This document shows, piece by piece, positions 17,256 to 61,816 of a stretch of 64,000 nt of DNA. Position 1 is the stretch's first letter. Each line of letters starts with the position of its first letter. Below the pieces are notes generated by a model. The model had not been told where the DNA came from. It did no database searches and saw only the letters and a list, made by a program, of their open reading frames with translations. The position numbers and the translations under genes were made by a program. Source of the stretch: an uncultured Desulfovibrionaceae bacterium (lineage in GTDB: Bacteria; Desulfobacterota; Desulfovibrionia; Desulfovibrionales; Desulfovibrionaceae); NCBI GenBank assembly GCA_949299515.1, contig CASGAP010000012.1, positions 1-64,000 on the forward strand. Direction: 5' to 3'.

Positions 17256-17331
<76 letters not shown>

Positions 17332-17479
17332 AACGTGTGTTCTTTATATAGAAGTTATTTGACTTTGTCAAATATTATTTTAATTTTTTTATTATTTTTT
17401 TAAGTTTATCTTACACAAAATATACATACCGCAAGGAAAAGCGGTAATAACAAAATTTTTGAGTAAATTAAACAAAAAA

Positions 17480-17495
17480 GTGAGTAAGAACTCAC
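17480..17495 (-). terminator. Terminator of the Thr-Pro-Thr tRNA operon
   Basis: On the minus strand GTGAGT-TCTT-ACTCAC is followed by six T, just downstream of the last tRNA-Thr. Confidence 0.75.
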
Positions 17496-17503
17496 ATATT
17501 GAA

Positions 17504-17579
17504 TGGAGCCCATGAGCAGGATTGAACTGCTGACCTCATCCTTACCAAGGATGCACTCTACCTACTGAGCTACATGGGC
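17504..17579 (-). tRNA. tRNA-Thr (GGT), copy 1
   Basis: 76 nt with encoded CCA. Acceptor GCCCATG/CATGGGC and anticodon loop TTGGTAA (anticodon GGT). Identical to the copy at 17682-17757. Confidence 0.97.
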
Positions 17580-17601
17580 AGTAACTATTGCGTTGATTTT
17601 A

Positions 17602-17678
17602 TGGTCGGGATGAGAGGATTTGAACCTCCGACCCCTTGAACCCCATTCAAGTGCGCTCCCAGACTGCGCTACATCCCG
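17602..17678 (-). tRNA. tRNA-Pro (GGG)
   Basis: 77 nt with encoded CCA. Acceptor CGGGATG/CATCCCG, anticodon stem CTTGA/TCAAG and loop ATGGGGT, giving anticodon GGG. It lies between the two identical tRNA-Thr genes. Confidence 0.96.
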
Positions 17679-17681
17679 ACG

Positions 17682-17757
17682 TGGAGCCCATGAGCAGGAT
17701 TGAACTGCTGACCTCATCCTTACCAAGGATGCACTCTACCTACTGAGCTACATGGGC
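17682..17757 (-). tRNA. tRNA-Thr (GGT), copy 2
   Basis: Identical over all 76 nt to the copy at 17504-17579. First gene of the Thr-Pro-Thr cluster, which has only 3 bp between this copy and tRNA-Pro. Confidence 0.97.
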
Positions 17758-18018
17758 AATCAACGAAGACTTTATTTACCTAAAAAACATTCTGCCGTCA
17801 AGCAAAAAATGCAAAATTATTTTTTTTTGTTGTTTTTTCTTTTTTGCCGAAGTTTTCAATATGCTTTGTTTTTGAGGATAATAAAAAATATGTCTTTTAT
17901 TTTATGGTGTTATGTTGTTTTTATATATAAGTGTTTGCTGTGGTTGGGGGTTCGGATTAATAGTGCGGCATGAGCAGGGCGTGAGGGCGAACTTAGAGTT
18001 GAGCATTTTATGAAAAAA

Positions 18019-18034
18019 GGCAGCCGAAGCTGCC
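18019..18034 (-). terminator. Terminator of the CNNM/CorC gene
   Basis: On the minus strand GGCAGC-TTCG-GCTGCC is followed by six T, 30 bp after the stop codon. Confidence 0.88.
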
Positions 18035-18064
18035 CTGTTAGGAGAGTGTATAGGGATTGGGTGA

Positions 18065-19396
18065 TTAAATTATTTCCGGGTCAGGAGATAACTTGTCTTG
18101 AATTTCGCAGCGATTTTTTGTGGCTTGTATGGTTTCTATTTTGGTGCCGTCCATTTCCATAATTTCAAATTTCCAATCCTGCCATTCGAGAACATCGCCT
18201 TTTTTCGGCACATTGCCCGAAAGGTACATGAGCAGGCCGCTAAGAATTGTATAATAGCCTTTGTCTTCGTCGGGCAGGGAGGGGATCTGCAGTTTGTCTT
18301 TCAGTTCGAGAATGGGAATGGAGCCGTTTAAAATCCATGTGCAGTTGTTTTGCGGCGTTGCCCAGGATTTTTCGTCGGCATAGCCTACCTGGCCGGCAAG
18401 GACGTTCAGAATGTTGCGTACGGTGAGCATTCCCTGCAGCACGCCGTATTCGTCAATAACAAAGGAAATGTACAGTCCGCGTGTCTGGAAAATTTTCAGC
18501 AGTTCCAAAATGGTAACTTTTTCCGGAACGTAAAACGGTTCCGTGCAGTGTTCTGCCAGTATTTCGGAACTGTCTTCCTTACTGTCCATAAGGATAAGCA
18601 GGGCTTGCTTGGCATGGATCAGGCCGATGATGTTGTTGATTTCGCCGTCGCAGACCGGCAGATAGGTGCAGGTGCAGTTTTTTAAAAATTCTATATTTTC
18701 CGGTCTTGATTTGTTCAGGTCAAGAAAGGATATTTTTCTTTTGGGGATCATAATGGAAACAGCAGGCCTGTCGTCAAGGCGGAACACATTATGAATAAGT
18801 TCTTTTTGCTGTATGTTGATCATGCCGTTTTCCGAACTTTCGTTTATCATGGCCTGAATTTCTTCTTCGGTAACGGCTTGGGATTCGTCATCTTTTACTT
18901 TAAGAATTTTGAGCAGCAGACTTGTGGAACTTGTGAGCAGCAGAATAAAAGGTTTGCTGATGACGGAAAGCAGGTTCATGGGACGCGCCACAAGGCAGGC
19001 AATGCCTTCCGGATTGATTTGTCCCAGGCGTTTTGGCACTAATTCGCCTACGACAATGGAAATATAGGTAATAATGGTAACAACGCCGATTGTGGCGATA
19101 AGATGGGCGGAAGATTTGGGAAGATTGAAAAGCTGCTGAAGTTTTTCGGCCAAGGGAACCGCAAGTGCCGCTTCCCCGAAAATACCGCTGAGCAGACCGA
19201 TGGACGTAATGCCTATTTGTATTGTGGAGAGAAATTGAGTTGGGTTTTCACCCAGTTTGAGGGCTGCCTGAGCCTTTTTGTCACCTGACGATATTCGCGA
19301 CAAAAGTCGCGAGCGCCGTGCGGTTACGAGGGCGATTTCCGACATGGCGAAAATGCCGTTTAGAACAATAAGCATAATTAAAATGAAAATTTCCAT
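18065..19396 (-). CDS. CNNM/CBS-domain membrane protein (HlyC/CorC family)
   Basis: 443 residues with the standard three-part layout. An N-terminal CNNM transmembrane domain (about 1-190) opens MEIFILIMLIVLNGIFAMSE and contains QIGITSIGLLSGIFGE. A CBS pair follows (about 205-330; MIPKRKISFLDL, FVIDEYGVLQGMLT). A C-terminal CorC/HlyC domain has DEDKGYYTILSGLLMYLSG. The family is linked to magnesium and cobalt efflux or homeostasis; the older name haemolysin is misleading. It is monocistronic, with its own terminator and a good GGAG before the start. The ion is inferred from the family. Confidence 0.93.
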   Translation of the reverse strand: MEIFILIMLIVLNGIFAMSEIALVTARRSRLLSRISSGDKKAQAALKLGENPTQFLSTIQIGITSIGLLSGIFGEAALAVPLAEKLQQLFNLPKSSAHLIATIGVVTIITYISIVVGELVPKRLGQINPEGIACLVARPMNLLSVISKPFILLLTSSTSLLLKILKVKDDESQAVTEEEIQAMINESSENGMINIQQKELIHNVFRLDDRPAVSIMIPKRKISFLDLNKSRPENIEFLKNCTCTYLPVCDGEINNIIGLIHAKQALLILMDSKEDSSEILAEHCTEPFYVPEKVTILELLKIFQTRGLYISFVIDEYGVLQGMLTVRNILNVLAGQVGYADEKSWATPQNNCTWILNGSIPILELKDKLQIPSLPDEDKGYYTILSGLLMYLSGNVPKKGDVLEWQDWKFEIMEMDGTKIETIQATKNRCEIQDKLSPDPEII

Positions 19397-19497
19397 ATAG
19401 CTCCTTAAAAAACTTGATTATAGAAATTAAATAGATAAAAAATGAAAAATATGTCAAGATTGTAAAATTGATTTTACAAAGATTTTACAAAATAAAA

Positions 19498-19528
19498 AAA
19501 CTCGGCAAAAAACCATTTTACCGAGTTT
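19498..19528 (-). terminator. Terminator of tRNA-Phe copy 2
   Basis: Stem AAACTCGG/CCGAGTTT with a long T-run on the minus strand, 10 bp after the tRNA 3' end. Confidence 0.8.
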
Positions 19529-19538
19529 GAAATTTGTG

Positions 19539-19614
<76 letters not shown>

Positions 19615-33540: not shown

Positions 33541-33565
33541 TTTTTAGAAAAAAAACATAAAAAAA

Positions 33566-33584
33566 GGCGGTTGTTATAACCGCC
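33566..33584 (+). terminator. Terminator of the amino-acid-binding protein gene
   Basis: Stem GGCGGTT/AACCGCC followed by seven T, with an A-run upstream so it may also work in reverse. Confidence 0.88.
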
Positions 33585-33606
33585 TTTTTTTATGCGGAAA
33601 ATATGC

Positions 33607-33898
33607 TTAGGGTATCCCAATTAATGCATTGCTTATGGAATTATAAAAAATATCTATAGGAGCAGATTGTTTTAAAGTTTGTTTCGGGTTGGGAAAAAGA
33701 TTTTTGCAGCCGTTCTCATTCATGGTATTTGCGGAACCGAAGCCGAAATATTCGCAACGGTTCATTAATACCGTGTAATGAGGGGATTGGGGGAGCCGCC
33801 CAAAAAGCGACAAGTCGTTTGCGTTAGTAAGCTTGCGAACTTTATGCAAACGGACAGCAAGGCAATCATTTCCCTCAAGAAAAAAGAAAAATAATTTG
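33607..33898 (+). repeat. Dispersed intergenic repeat, copy A (longest)
   Basis: About 290 bp filling the gap between two convergent genes. The left 100 bp (from TTAGGGTAT to GCAGCCG) match copy C at 61593-61797. The right 110 bp match both copy B at about 51095-51275 and copy C. A hairpin with arms CGTTTGC/GCAAACG at 33816-33822 and 33846-33852 lies in the shared core and is conserved in all three copies. Reading frames differ between copies, so it is not a conserved gene. Confidence 0.75.
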
Positions 33899-33908
33899 GA
33901 AATACACT

Positions 33909-34610
33909 TTAGGTGGGATTGCTGAATTTAAAATAGGTATCGAATTCTCCGACAAGATGGTGGGAAAGCAGGCTCATGAGTGTTGCGATGGAAGGCTGTT
34001 TTATGTCGTCTTCGGTGCTGACCGGATAAAAAATGGGATAATCACGCAAAAAGCCGAGGGTTGCGTTGATAATCATAAATGCACTCAGTCTTGCCCGTGA
34101 GGGGTTGATGTTTTTGGTTGCTTTATTGATGATAATTTCGATATTGGCGATAAGCGGAAAAAAAACATCTCTGTAGCCGGAAGTGCTGTGGGGATTTTTT
34201 TCGTTGATATCCTGCAAAAGAAGCAGGGCATGGCCCGCTACCTGTTCCATGCCGATAAATTTCATGGCCAGGGAGTTTATTTCGTCGGTAAGGGCGTTGA
34301 ACAGCTCTTTGCCTTCAAGTTTTGATTGGGCAAGAAGTTCCAGATTTTTAACGGAAGGGTCGAGCATTTCGATAAGGCGCCGTTTTACCCGTTTGATAGC
34401 GGCTTCGTACAGACCCTGCTTGCCGCCGAAATGGAATGTGATAAGGCCCAAATTGCATTGTGCGGCTTCTGCCAGAGCTCTGGTGTTTGTGGCTTTGTAG
34501 CCGTTTTGCCCGAAAAGGCGGATAGCTTCTATGACCAGTTTTTCTCTGGTAGCTTCTCCTTTCAGTTTGCGTTGGTCGGTCGTGTTTGCGGCAGTTTGTT
34601 TCTTTTTCAT
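33909..34610 (-). CDS. TetR/AcrR-family transcriptional regulator
   Basis: 233 residues. The N-terminal TetR helix-turn-helix is REKLVIEAIRLFGQNGYKATNTRALAEAAQ, then LGLITFHFGGKQGLYEAAI (about 20-70). The C-terminal part resembles the DUF1956/CerR group (FIGMEQVAGHALLLLQ). The gene is divergent from a sirtuin gene, with two adjacent perfect palindromes in the gap, so the pair is a likely regulator-target unit. The ligand is unknown. Confidence 0.9.
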   Translation of the reverse strand: MKKKQTAANTTDQRKLKGEATREKLVIEAIRLFGQNGYKATNTRALAEAAQCNLGLITFHFGGKQGLYEAAIKRVKRRLIEMLDPSVKNLELLAQSKLEGKELFNALTDEINSLAMKFIGMEQVAGHALLLLQDINEKNPHSTSGYRDVFFPLIANIEIIINKATKNINPSRARLSAFMIINATLGFLRDYPIFYPVSTEDDIKQPSIATLMSLLSHHLVGEFDTYFKFSNPT

Positions 34611-51015: not shown

Positions 51016-51042
51016 TTTATTTGCACAATGTTACATGACACG

Positions 51043-51060
51043 AAGTCCCATATGGGACTT
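51043..51060 (+). terminator. Terminator of rpsT
   Basis: Perfect palindrome AAGTCCCATATGGGACTT followed by TTTTG, 27 bp after the stop codon. Confidence 0.85.
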
Positions 51061-51094
51061 TTTGTCGTTTAATACAGTATATTATTAAAATAAA

Positions 51095-51275
51095 ACCATT
51101 GATTGTCCAAAGTATGGGCAGAGTCAAAACCAAAAAATACGCAGGATTAAAATATGTCCCATAATGAGGGTGCCTGAGGAGCCCCCAAAAAGGACGGCAA
51201 ACCGTTTGCGCTATTAAGCTTGCGAACCTTACGCAAATAGACAGCAATGCAATCATTTCCTCCGAAAAAATGGAA
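51095..51275 (+). repeat. Dispersed intergenic repeat, copy B
   Basis: Lies between convergent rpsT and the UPF0280 gene. It matches the right two thirds of copy A at 33607-33898, from CATAATGAGGG onward through AGCTTGCGAAC, GCAAAT and GACAGCAATGCAATCATTTCC. The core hairpin arms TTTGCG (51205-51210) and CGCAAA (51232-51237) are perfectly paired. The left part of copy A is missing or too diverged to align. Confidence 0.65.
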
Positions 51276-51300
51276 AAAAAATCAGCCAATAAATTAAATT

Positions 51301-60396: not shown

Positions 60397-61596
60397 ATGA
60401 AGTTTGAACGGTATATAATGCACGTGGACATGGATGCGTTTTATGCGTCCATAGAACAGCGGGACAACCCGGAATATCGGGGCAGGCCTCTTATTATCGG
60501 CGGCAGAACCCGCGGCGTGGTAGCCACGTGTTCCTATGAAGCAAGGCAGTTCGGCGTACGTTCCGCCATGCCCGTGCACGAGGCGAAACGCAAATGCCCG
60601 CAGGGTATTTTCATAACCCCGCGCATGGCTGTTTACCGTCAGGTTTCCGCGCAGATTCACGAAATTTTAAAAAATTTTTCGCCGCTGGTGGAAATGGCTT
60701 CCGTGGACGAAGCGTATCTTGATATTACGGGGCTTGATAATCTTTTCGGCGTGCCTTACGAAACCGCACAAAAAATTCAGTCTGAAATTTTTTCCCAAAC
60801 TGGCGGGCTGACCTGTTCGATAGGCATAGCTCCGATTAAATTCCTTGCCAAAATAGCGTCCGACGAAAAGAAACCCCGTGGAATTTTTATGATAACGCAT
60901 GACCAAATGCCTCTTTATCTTCAGAATCTGCCCATTGCCAAAATTCCTGGTGTGGGGAAAAAATTTTTGGAAGAGCTGAACAAGTTGGGAATACGCAAAT
61001 GCGCCGACGTGCTTGCCCTGGATAAAGTTTTTTTTGAGCATAAATTCGGAAAGGCCGGCACTGTTCTCTATGAACGTTCCGGCGGCATTGACCGCAGGGA
61101 AGTGGAGCCTTATGCGGAACGGAAATCCGAGAGTGCCGAAACAACGTTGGACGAAAACGTAAGTGATAAGTCTGTGCTGAAAAAATGGCTGCTTATCCAT
61201 GCGGAACGGGTCGGTGCGGGGCTTCGCAAACAAAATCTGAAAGGAAGAACAATTACGATAAAAGTAAAATATGCCGATTTCAAACAAATAACACGCCAGC
61301 TTACGCTGGAAAAACGCACCAATGCCACGGATACCATTTATCAGAATGCCTGTGCGCTTTTGGACGGACTTTCTTTGAATAAACCTGTACGGCTGATAGG
61401 CGTAGTGGTATCGGGATTTGAGGAACAGGAACATACCGAGCAGCTTTCTTTTTTTGACCTGCCTTTATGTTCTGCTTCGTCAAAAGACAATACCGAAGAA
61501 AAGCGCTGCAGTCTTGACGCCGCGCTGGACAGTCTGCGCGGAAAATACGGAGCAAATGCCGTAGTGCGCGGCAAACTGTTTTCCAAAACCGATTAG
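60397..61596 (+). CDS. dinB: DNA polymerase IV (DinB, Y-family)
   Basis: 399 residues. Catalytic motifs MHVDMDAFYASIEQ near 8 and MASVDEAYLDITG near 105 hold the metal-binding acids; YEARQFGVRSAMP near 48 and IPGVGKKFLEELNKLG near 185 complete the palm, thumb and HhH regions. A clamp-binding QLSFFDLPL lies near 350. It performs translesion synthesis. No LexA box is obvious upstream. Its stop codon lies in the left end of repeat copy C. Confidence 0.96.
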   Translation: MKFERYIMHVDMDAFYASIEQRDNPEYRGRPLIIGGRTRGVVATCSYEARQFGVRSAMPVHEAKRKCPQGIFITPRMAVYRQVSAQIHEILKNFSPLVEMASVDEAYLDITGLDNLFGVPYETAQKIQSEIFSQTGGLTCSIGIAPIKFLAKIASDEKKPRGIFMITHDQMPLYLQNLPIAKIPGVGKKFLEELNKLGIRKCADVLALDKVFFEHKFGKAGTVLYERSGGIDRREVEPYAERKSESAETTLDENVSDKSVLKKWLLIHAERVGAGLRKQNLKGRTITIKVKYADFKQITRQLTLEKRTNATDTIYQNACALLDGLSLNKPVRLIGVVVSGFEEQEHTEQLSFFDLPLCSASSKDNTEEKRCSLDAALDSLRGKYGANAVVRGKLFSKTD

Positions 61597-61797
61597 GGTA
61601 TGTTACCGAATTAATGCCATTGATTATAACAGTTATAAAAAATATCAACGGAAACGGACAGTTTTAAAGGTTGTTTTGGTTTGGAAAAAATTTTTCAGCC
61701 GCCAAAGGGCGACAAGTTATTTGCGTCAGTGAATTTGTGAACTTTACGCAAATGGACAGCAGTGCAGCTATTTCCCCCAAGAAAAAAAATAAGTTGG
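61593..61797 (+). repeat. Dispersed intergenic repeat, copy C
   Basis: Lies between convergent dinB and mnmA. The left 100 bp match copy A from TTAGGGTAT through TTATAAAAAATATC and GTTTTAAAG to CAGCCG; about 85 bp present in copy A are then missing, and the right 100 bp match copies A and B. The core hairpin arms are ATTTGCG (61719-61725) and CGCAAAT (61747-61753). Its left edge begins at the dinB stop codon. Confidence 0.72.
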
Positions 61798-61816
61798 AAG
61801 CATATTCTAAAAAATA

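Follow-up and report, generated by a model that had tools for sequence, protein, structure and literature searches.

IS5-family MITEs are short, non-coding elements that carry the TIRs of an IS5-family insertion sequence, are flanked by TA and occur in many copies in intergenic positions. Correia/NEMIS elements of Neisseria and RUP elements of Streptococcus pneumoniae, which use TA targets and are linked to IS630-type transposases, are likewise short TIR elements with strong hairpins. REP/BIME elements are palindromic, present in many copies and found in tandem and convergent positions; REPs measure 20-40 bp, carry GTAG or CGTC tags and have RAYT partners. It has been reported that REP repeats are located chiefly between tandem or convergent genes (PMC3733652), that Correia transcripts are cleaved by RNase III, and that ERIC elements, which are intergenic and hairpin-forming, have effects upon insertion at gene 3' ends (PMC10969869).

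Here, we analysed a repeat present in three copies in a stretch of 64,000 nucleotides (the window), which is C12:1-64000 of a 1.76-Mb genome assembled in 16 contigs (G000). Among named genomes, the MnmA of this organism is most closely related to that of UBA8003 (72%), followed by Mailhella (66%). UBA8003 belongs to Taurinivorans muris, the genome of which is 2.2 Mb (PMC10507020). This relatedness suggests that the host is a Desulfovibrionaceae near T. muris and that the organism of the window is a sister species.

The repeat resembles IS5-family MITEs in size, non-coding nature, ends, TA flanks, copy number and intergenic location, but its body, rather than an evident internal deletion of the insertion sequence, is a structured module that has kin in other genera. 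It has the general build of Correia/NEMIS and RUP, but is unrelated to them in sequence, and an IS630-type MITE was rejected because PF13358 (DDE_3) is absent from six genomes of the genus. ERIC elements are similarly intergenic and hairpin-forming, and are set apart by their different ends as known from the family, not by alignment. In the literature on the element, its setting and the organism, we found no description of the repeat or its module, and Rfam has no model for it. Nothing in the element scores above the Rfam gathering cut-off; the sole Rfam matches in the window are five tRNA genes (17259-19614, minus strand).

Copies and anatomy of the element

A previous sequence-only reading of the window had proposed three related non-coding copies in one orientation with a ∼100-bp core in common, which was confirmed by the scores of a core covariance model (Table 1). 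The further ∼100 bp on the left that it had seen in two copies is common to copies 1 and 3. Its coordinates designated real copies and needed correction at the ends, which are TIRs: copy 1 ends at 33911 rather than 33898, and copy 3 spans 61593-61809. The genome-wide covariance-model search that it had recommended revealed 59 core-bearing copies spread over the whole G000 genome, to which searches by DNA and TIR added ∼10 core-less copies; with copy 1 as a BLAST query, there were 53 matches genome-wide. The core model also found 2, 1, 2, 18, and 1 copies in five congeners and no match in six further genomes tested. As assessed by this search, most G000 copies are not common to relatives.

Table 1. 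Coordinates of the three copies of the element and of their parts in the window
Feature	Positions	Strand	Remarks
Copy 1, full-length element from TA to TA (TIR, AT-rich left part, long hairpin, clamped core, TIR)	33607..33911	+	
Copy 1, left TIR, TTAGGGTATCCCAATTAATGCA	33607..33628	+	77% to consensus TIR
Copy 1, right TIR; outer bases are the TAA stop of the tetR-family gene 33909-34610	33892..33911	-	Stop offset 0
Copy 1, long hairpin, CTCATTCATGGTATT.../...AATACCGTGTAATGAG	33714..33783	+	Arms covary across copies
Copy 1, core, with clamp GGGGGA / TTTCCCTC at its borders	33789..33876	+	Covariance-model match 33776-33879, 109.6 bits
Copy 1, core hairpin (named in the sequence-only reading), TCGTTTGCGT / ATGCAAACGG	33815..33853	+	
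Copy 2, core kept, ends no longer recognisable as TIRs	51069..51300 (boundaries approximate)	+	Identity: left TIR 0.23, right TIR 0.55, core 0.84
Copy 2, core match	51162..51266	+	92.5 bits
Copy 3, bounded by TIRs, with deletion of the long hairpin and the 5' clamp	61593..61809	+	
Copy 3, left TIR; its TAG is the stop of dinB (60397-61596)	61593..61614	+	Stop offset 0
Copy 3, core match	61684..61781	+	73.4 bits; hairpin arms 61719-61726 / 61746-61753

Full-length copies are ∼300 bp long, with TIRs of ∼20 bp (TAGGGTRTGTTTCC) and TA outside, and the two ends of the consensus are inverted repeats of each other. The left half of the consensus consists of TTAGGGTATGTTTCCGAATTAA, an AT-rich left part, a T-run, the long hairpin, and AATGAGGGGGCCTGGGGGA; the right half consists of the core, ATCATTTCCCCC, an A-run, and TAATTTGGAAACACACCCTAA. 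The fold of this consensus has a z of -10 relative to shuffles. The core (∼85 bp) is clamped by G5...C5. In short copies, GGGGGA is joined straight to AATCATTTCCCCC, which generates the palindrome GGGGGAAATCATTTCCCCC, indicating that the core occupies the loop of that palindrome. In G003 and G005, an orthologous clamp module (L104, L099) has its loop filled by a different core, GCAGCCGTCAGCGGGTTTGCGAGCTTTACGGACAGCGGCAGAG, which suggests that various inserts can be accommodated in the loop. A further element end (TTAGGGTATGTTTCCGAATTA) is found in G001 immediately inside the left terminus of an older element (L130:1850-2180), an arrangement that looks like the insertion of a MITE within another MITE.

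Ends, target site, and a candidate transposase

A congener (G003) contains an 832-bp element (L125 6696-7527) with TAGGGTGTGTTTCC ends; the IS5-family transposase of this element occupies two reading frames, scores above cut-off for NF033580, and matches PF01609. Because the TIRs of the window repeats are common to this autonomous insertion sequence, the repeats can be assigned to the IS5-type MITEs. Homologues of the transposase are present in three of six genomes of the genus (G003, G004, and G005), and none was found in the G000 assembly, which is 91% complete. In the sister species G004, there are 270 TIR matches, and two element types are present. On the same G003 stretch as the 832-bp element, two ISXO2-like (IS1595-family) transposase gene copies lie between IS5-type ends (L125:3138-5294).

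Features of the target site are those of IS5-type MITEs. TA is found outside 32 of 52 TIRs, with a variable base before it. The dinB/mnmA spacer, 220 bp long in the window, measures 73 bp in G003 and G005, which therefore display the empty site; relative to that site, copy 3 has TA at both ends, consistent with a TA target duplication. Downstream of rpsT, there is no element in G001, G002, G003, and G005, and there is a different, short-type element in G004. The body is non-coding, as assessed by the frame test of the core (see below). TIRs are not found in all copies, with both ends showing <60% identity in 16 of 60 core-bearing copies, and only the TIR-bearing copies are filed as IS5-type MITEs.

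We consider it probable that the three copies are IS5-type MITEs, with TIR GGGTRTGTTTCCRAATTA and a TA target, mobilised in trans by a transposase of the IS5 family and carrying a structured module as cargo. The common ends, the TA, the empty site, and an IS5 transposase lying between the same ends all suggest that transposition would have taken place, using an enzyme of the kind present in sister species. The putative cargo would be the long hairpin, followed by the G5...C5 clamp that encloses the ∼85-bp core, and a similar hairpin-plus-clamp module, core-less, occurs in other Desulfovibrionaceae. The earlier description of the repeat as MITE-like is thus upheld by the TIRs, TA flanks, IS5-family partner, and empty site.

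Gene context

After calling genes by a dicodon method, 69 copies could be classified genome-wide, 42 of which are convergent, 22 tandem, and 5 divergent. The background, taken from the 52 junctions in the window, is 11 convergent, 30 tandem, and 11 divergent. The bias for convergent over divergent positions (42:5) is highly significant (P=2e-8). The sequence-only reading had placed the element always between convergent genes, which is true of the window, where all three copies are so located (solute-binding protein/tetR, rpsT/unknown, and dinB/mnmA), but genome-wide it is a strong bias only (42/69). Eight element ends fall exactly on the stop codon of the gene reading in, including the TAG of dinB and the TAA of tetR. 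Insertion at a stop-codon TA re-creates the stop, and the element may owe part of its harmlessness to this. Insertions are mostly found downstream of genes, often between convergent ones, and sometimes exactly on a stop codon, which is then restored by the TAG of the element end; those in promoters or within genes would probably have been purged by selection.

This distribution bears on two other explanations. Like the repeat, REPs favour spaces between tandem or convergent genes (PMC3733652), which would fit a REP/BIME element mobilised by a RAYT transposase (IS200/IS605-type), and the label REP-type given to the repeat in the sequence-only reading does fit its location on the 3' sides of genes. 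However, the tags do not describe the element, since neither GTAG nor CGTC was noted in any copy or module that we read, and a ∼300-bp element with long TIRs, TA flanks, and an IS5 partner is no tagged palindrome of 20-40 bp, which makes this explanation scarcely credible. Position on the 3' sides of genes, together with strong hairpins, could also be expected of bidirectional transcription terminators between convergent genes, another of the original suggestions. In the window copies, however, no element stem is followed by a U-tract on either strand, no terminator-like site was found in hairpin or core, and two neighbouring genes have their own adjoining terminators outside the elements (33555-33595 and 51042-51061). 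Moreover, five copies in the genome lie between divergent genes. A terminator function is therefore very improbable.

Hairpins and core

The core hairpin had been described as compensated, and one of its pairs cited as a sign of selection on structure. Among 50 G000 copies, we found 9 double-change cells in this hairpin versus 10.3 in shuffles, i.e. no excess, and rejected within-genome covariation, including that of the pair cited. Across species, there are 22 double-change cells versus 9.7, although these represent only few independent events; in comparison with G004, two pairs have switched from G-C to C-G and pairing remains at 99%. Compensation in the core hairpin, and structural selection with it, is thus supported between species but not within G000. 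There is also real compensation in the long upstream hairpin, which the sequence-only reading had not named. This hairpin has 117 double-change cells versus 58 +/- 8, and a pairing of 76.4% versus 71.0 +/- 0.6, in shuffles that ignore kinship among copies, so that the excess is supportive and gives no probability; none of 500 shuffles reached either value. The long hairpin is degraded or lost in approximately one-third of the copies.

We then considered the core itself. The ratios of synonymous to nonsynonymous changes range from 1.0 to 1.55 over its six frames, with no clear synonymous excess, and stops arise in every frame; a coding core was therefore rejected. A core with a sequence-specific function, as an sRNA or a protein-binding site, might instead be under purifying selection after insertion. 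This would fit a conservation that is uncoupled from loss of TIR and hairpin, as well as the two pair flips that preserve the core hairpin across species. On the other hand, the single orthologous pair found (G000 C9:18.9k and G001 C21:15.4k), with 8/86 substitutions in the core versus 9/208 in the remainder of the element, does not support in-place selection on the core. A promoter search gave no site in copies 1 and 3, and two weak sites at the left edge of copy 2. Tandem copies are randomly oriented, 12 in gene direction and 10 opposite, which argues against a strand-specific signal, and most copies are absent from relatives. These findings make a functional core unlikely, and speak against the autonomous small RNA envisaged in the sequence-only reading. 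Should read-through transcription extend into the element, its most likely effect would be that of a double-stranded 3'-UTR structure of the kind known for Correia elements (PMC10969869), which might block ribonucleases, or be cut by them, from either side.

Other origins of the core were rejected as well. For a phage or plasmid origin, there was no phage match and one weak plasmid match, and viral contigs yielded no core by exact pattern or by protein. The RYYYAAC/GTTRRRY boxes of an integron attC were not seen by eye in the core. Between the prophage baseplate genes GPW_gp25-like and Baseplate_J of G003 (L097:1378-1632), there is a stretch resembling the core (96% over 48 bp); it has one open frame, an 84-aa ORF with no Pfam match.

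Copies without TIRs and a related module in Desulfovibrionaceae

Identity of the core to the consensus is 0.87 both in nine copies with good TIRs and in 16 TIR-less copies. Copy 2, which is TIR-less, is missing from G001, the DNA of which is ∼90% identical to that of G000 around a shared locus, making gradual decay of its ends after insertion unlikely. Considering that ∼16 of 60 core-bearing copies are TIR-less and that copy 2 is lineage-specific, with too little time for decay by point mutation, dispersal may be possible without the ends. Either source elements have variable ends, or the module spreads without ends.

A survey of 149 Desulfovibrionaceae genomes identified GGGGGAAATNATTTCCCCC, with ≤1 mismatch, in 44 genomes and in 13 of 44 genera, whereas the reversed control pattern gave zero matches. 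There are 155 occurrences in G004 and ≤55 per genome outside the genus. In two complete genomes, most of these sites are preceded by a perfect hairpin with ∼20-bp arms, which differs from copy to copy, and the modules are distributed as 13 convergent, 15 tandem, 0 divergent, and 3 within called ORFs. At orthologous sites of G114 and G096 (L203/L228, L204:4876/L227, and L219/L223), both hairpin arms differ and are still complementary, a pattern suggestive of coupled change or of inter-copy conversion. No IS5-type ends were noticed around the palindrome modules at the loci examined in other Desulfovibrionaceae. At L203 and L228, there is an extra hairpin of the type GGGGGGAAACTTTTTTGAAAAAAAGTTTCCCCCC, ∼150-200 bases upstream of the palindrome, and a similar one is found in G004 (L179).

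These observations raise the possibility, which we hold tentatively, that the hairpin-clamp-core module itself disperses, by ectopic conversion or another enzyme, and that some copies captured IS5 ends. Equal core identity with or without TIRs, the resemblance of TIR-less copy 2 to a lineage-specific insertion, the wide occurrence of a related palindrome in genera with no ends noticed at the loci examined, and the whole hairpins that differ between G114 and G096 are all in its favour. However, copy 2 retains vestiges of TIR-side sequence (CCATTGATTG), and no sharp alternative ends, duplications, or enzyme were identified. Family-wide, it is conceivable, if doubtful, that structured modules, composed of a hairpin with interchangeable complementary arms and a fixed G5AAATNATTTC5 clamp that can host the core, spread without transposon ends and were packaged secondarily as an IS5-type MITE in Taurinivorans. 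The IS5-based and independent-module readings overlap, and TIR-bearing and TIR-less copies may use different routes.

Significance

With the three copies read as IS5-type MITEs, a repeat that stands out in a little-studied gut genus would be accounted for by a mobile element whose partner can be named; in addition, the analysis brings to light a palindromic module found across the family. If this module spreads without IS5 ends, its mode of dispersal becomes a testable question. The orthologous sites with both arms changed offer a natural case to separate structural selection from inter-copy conversion.
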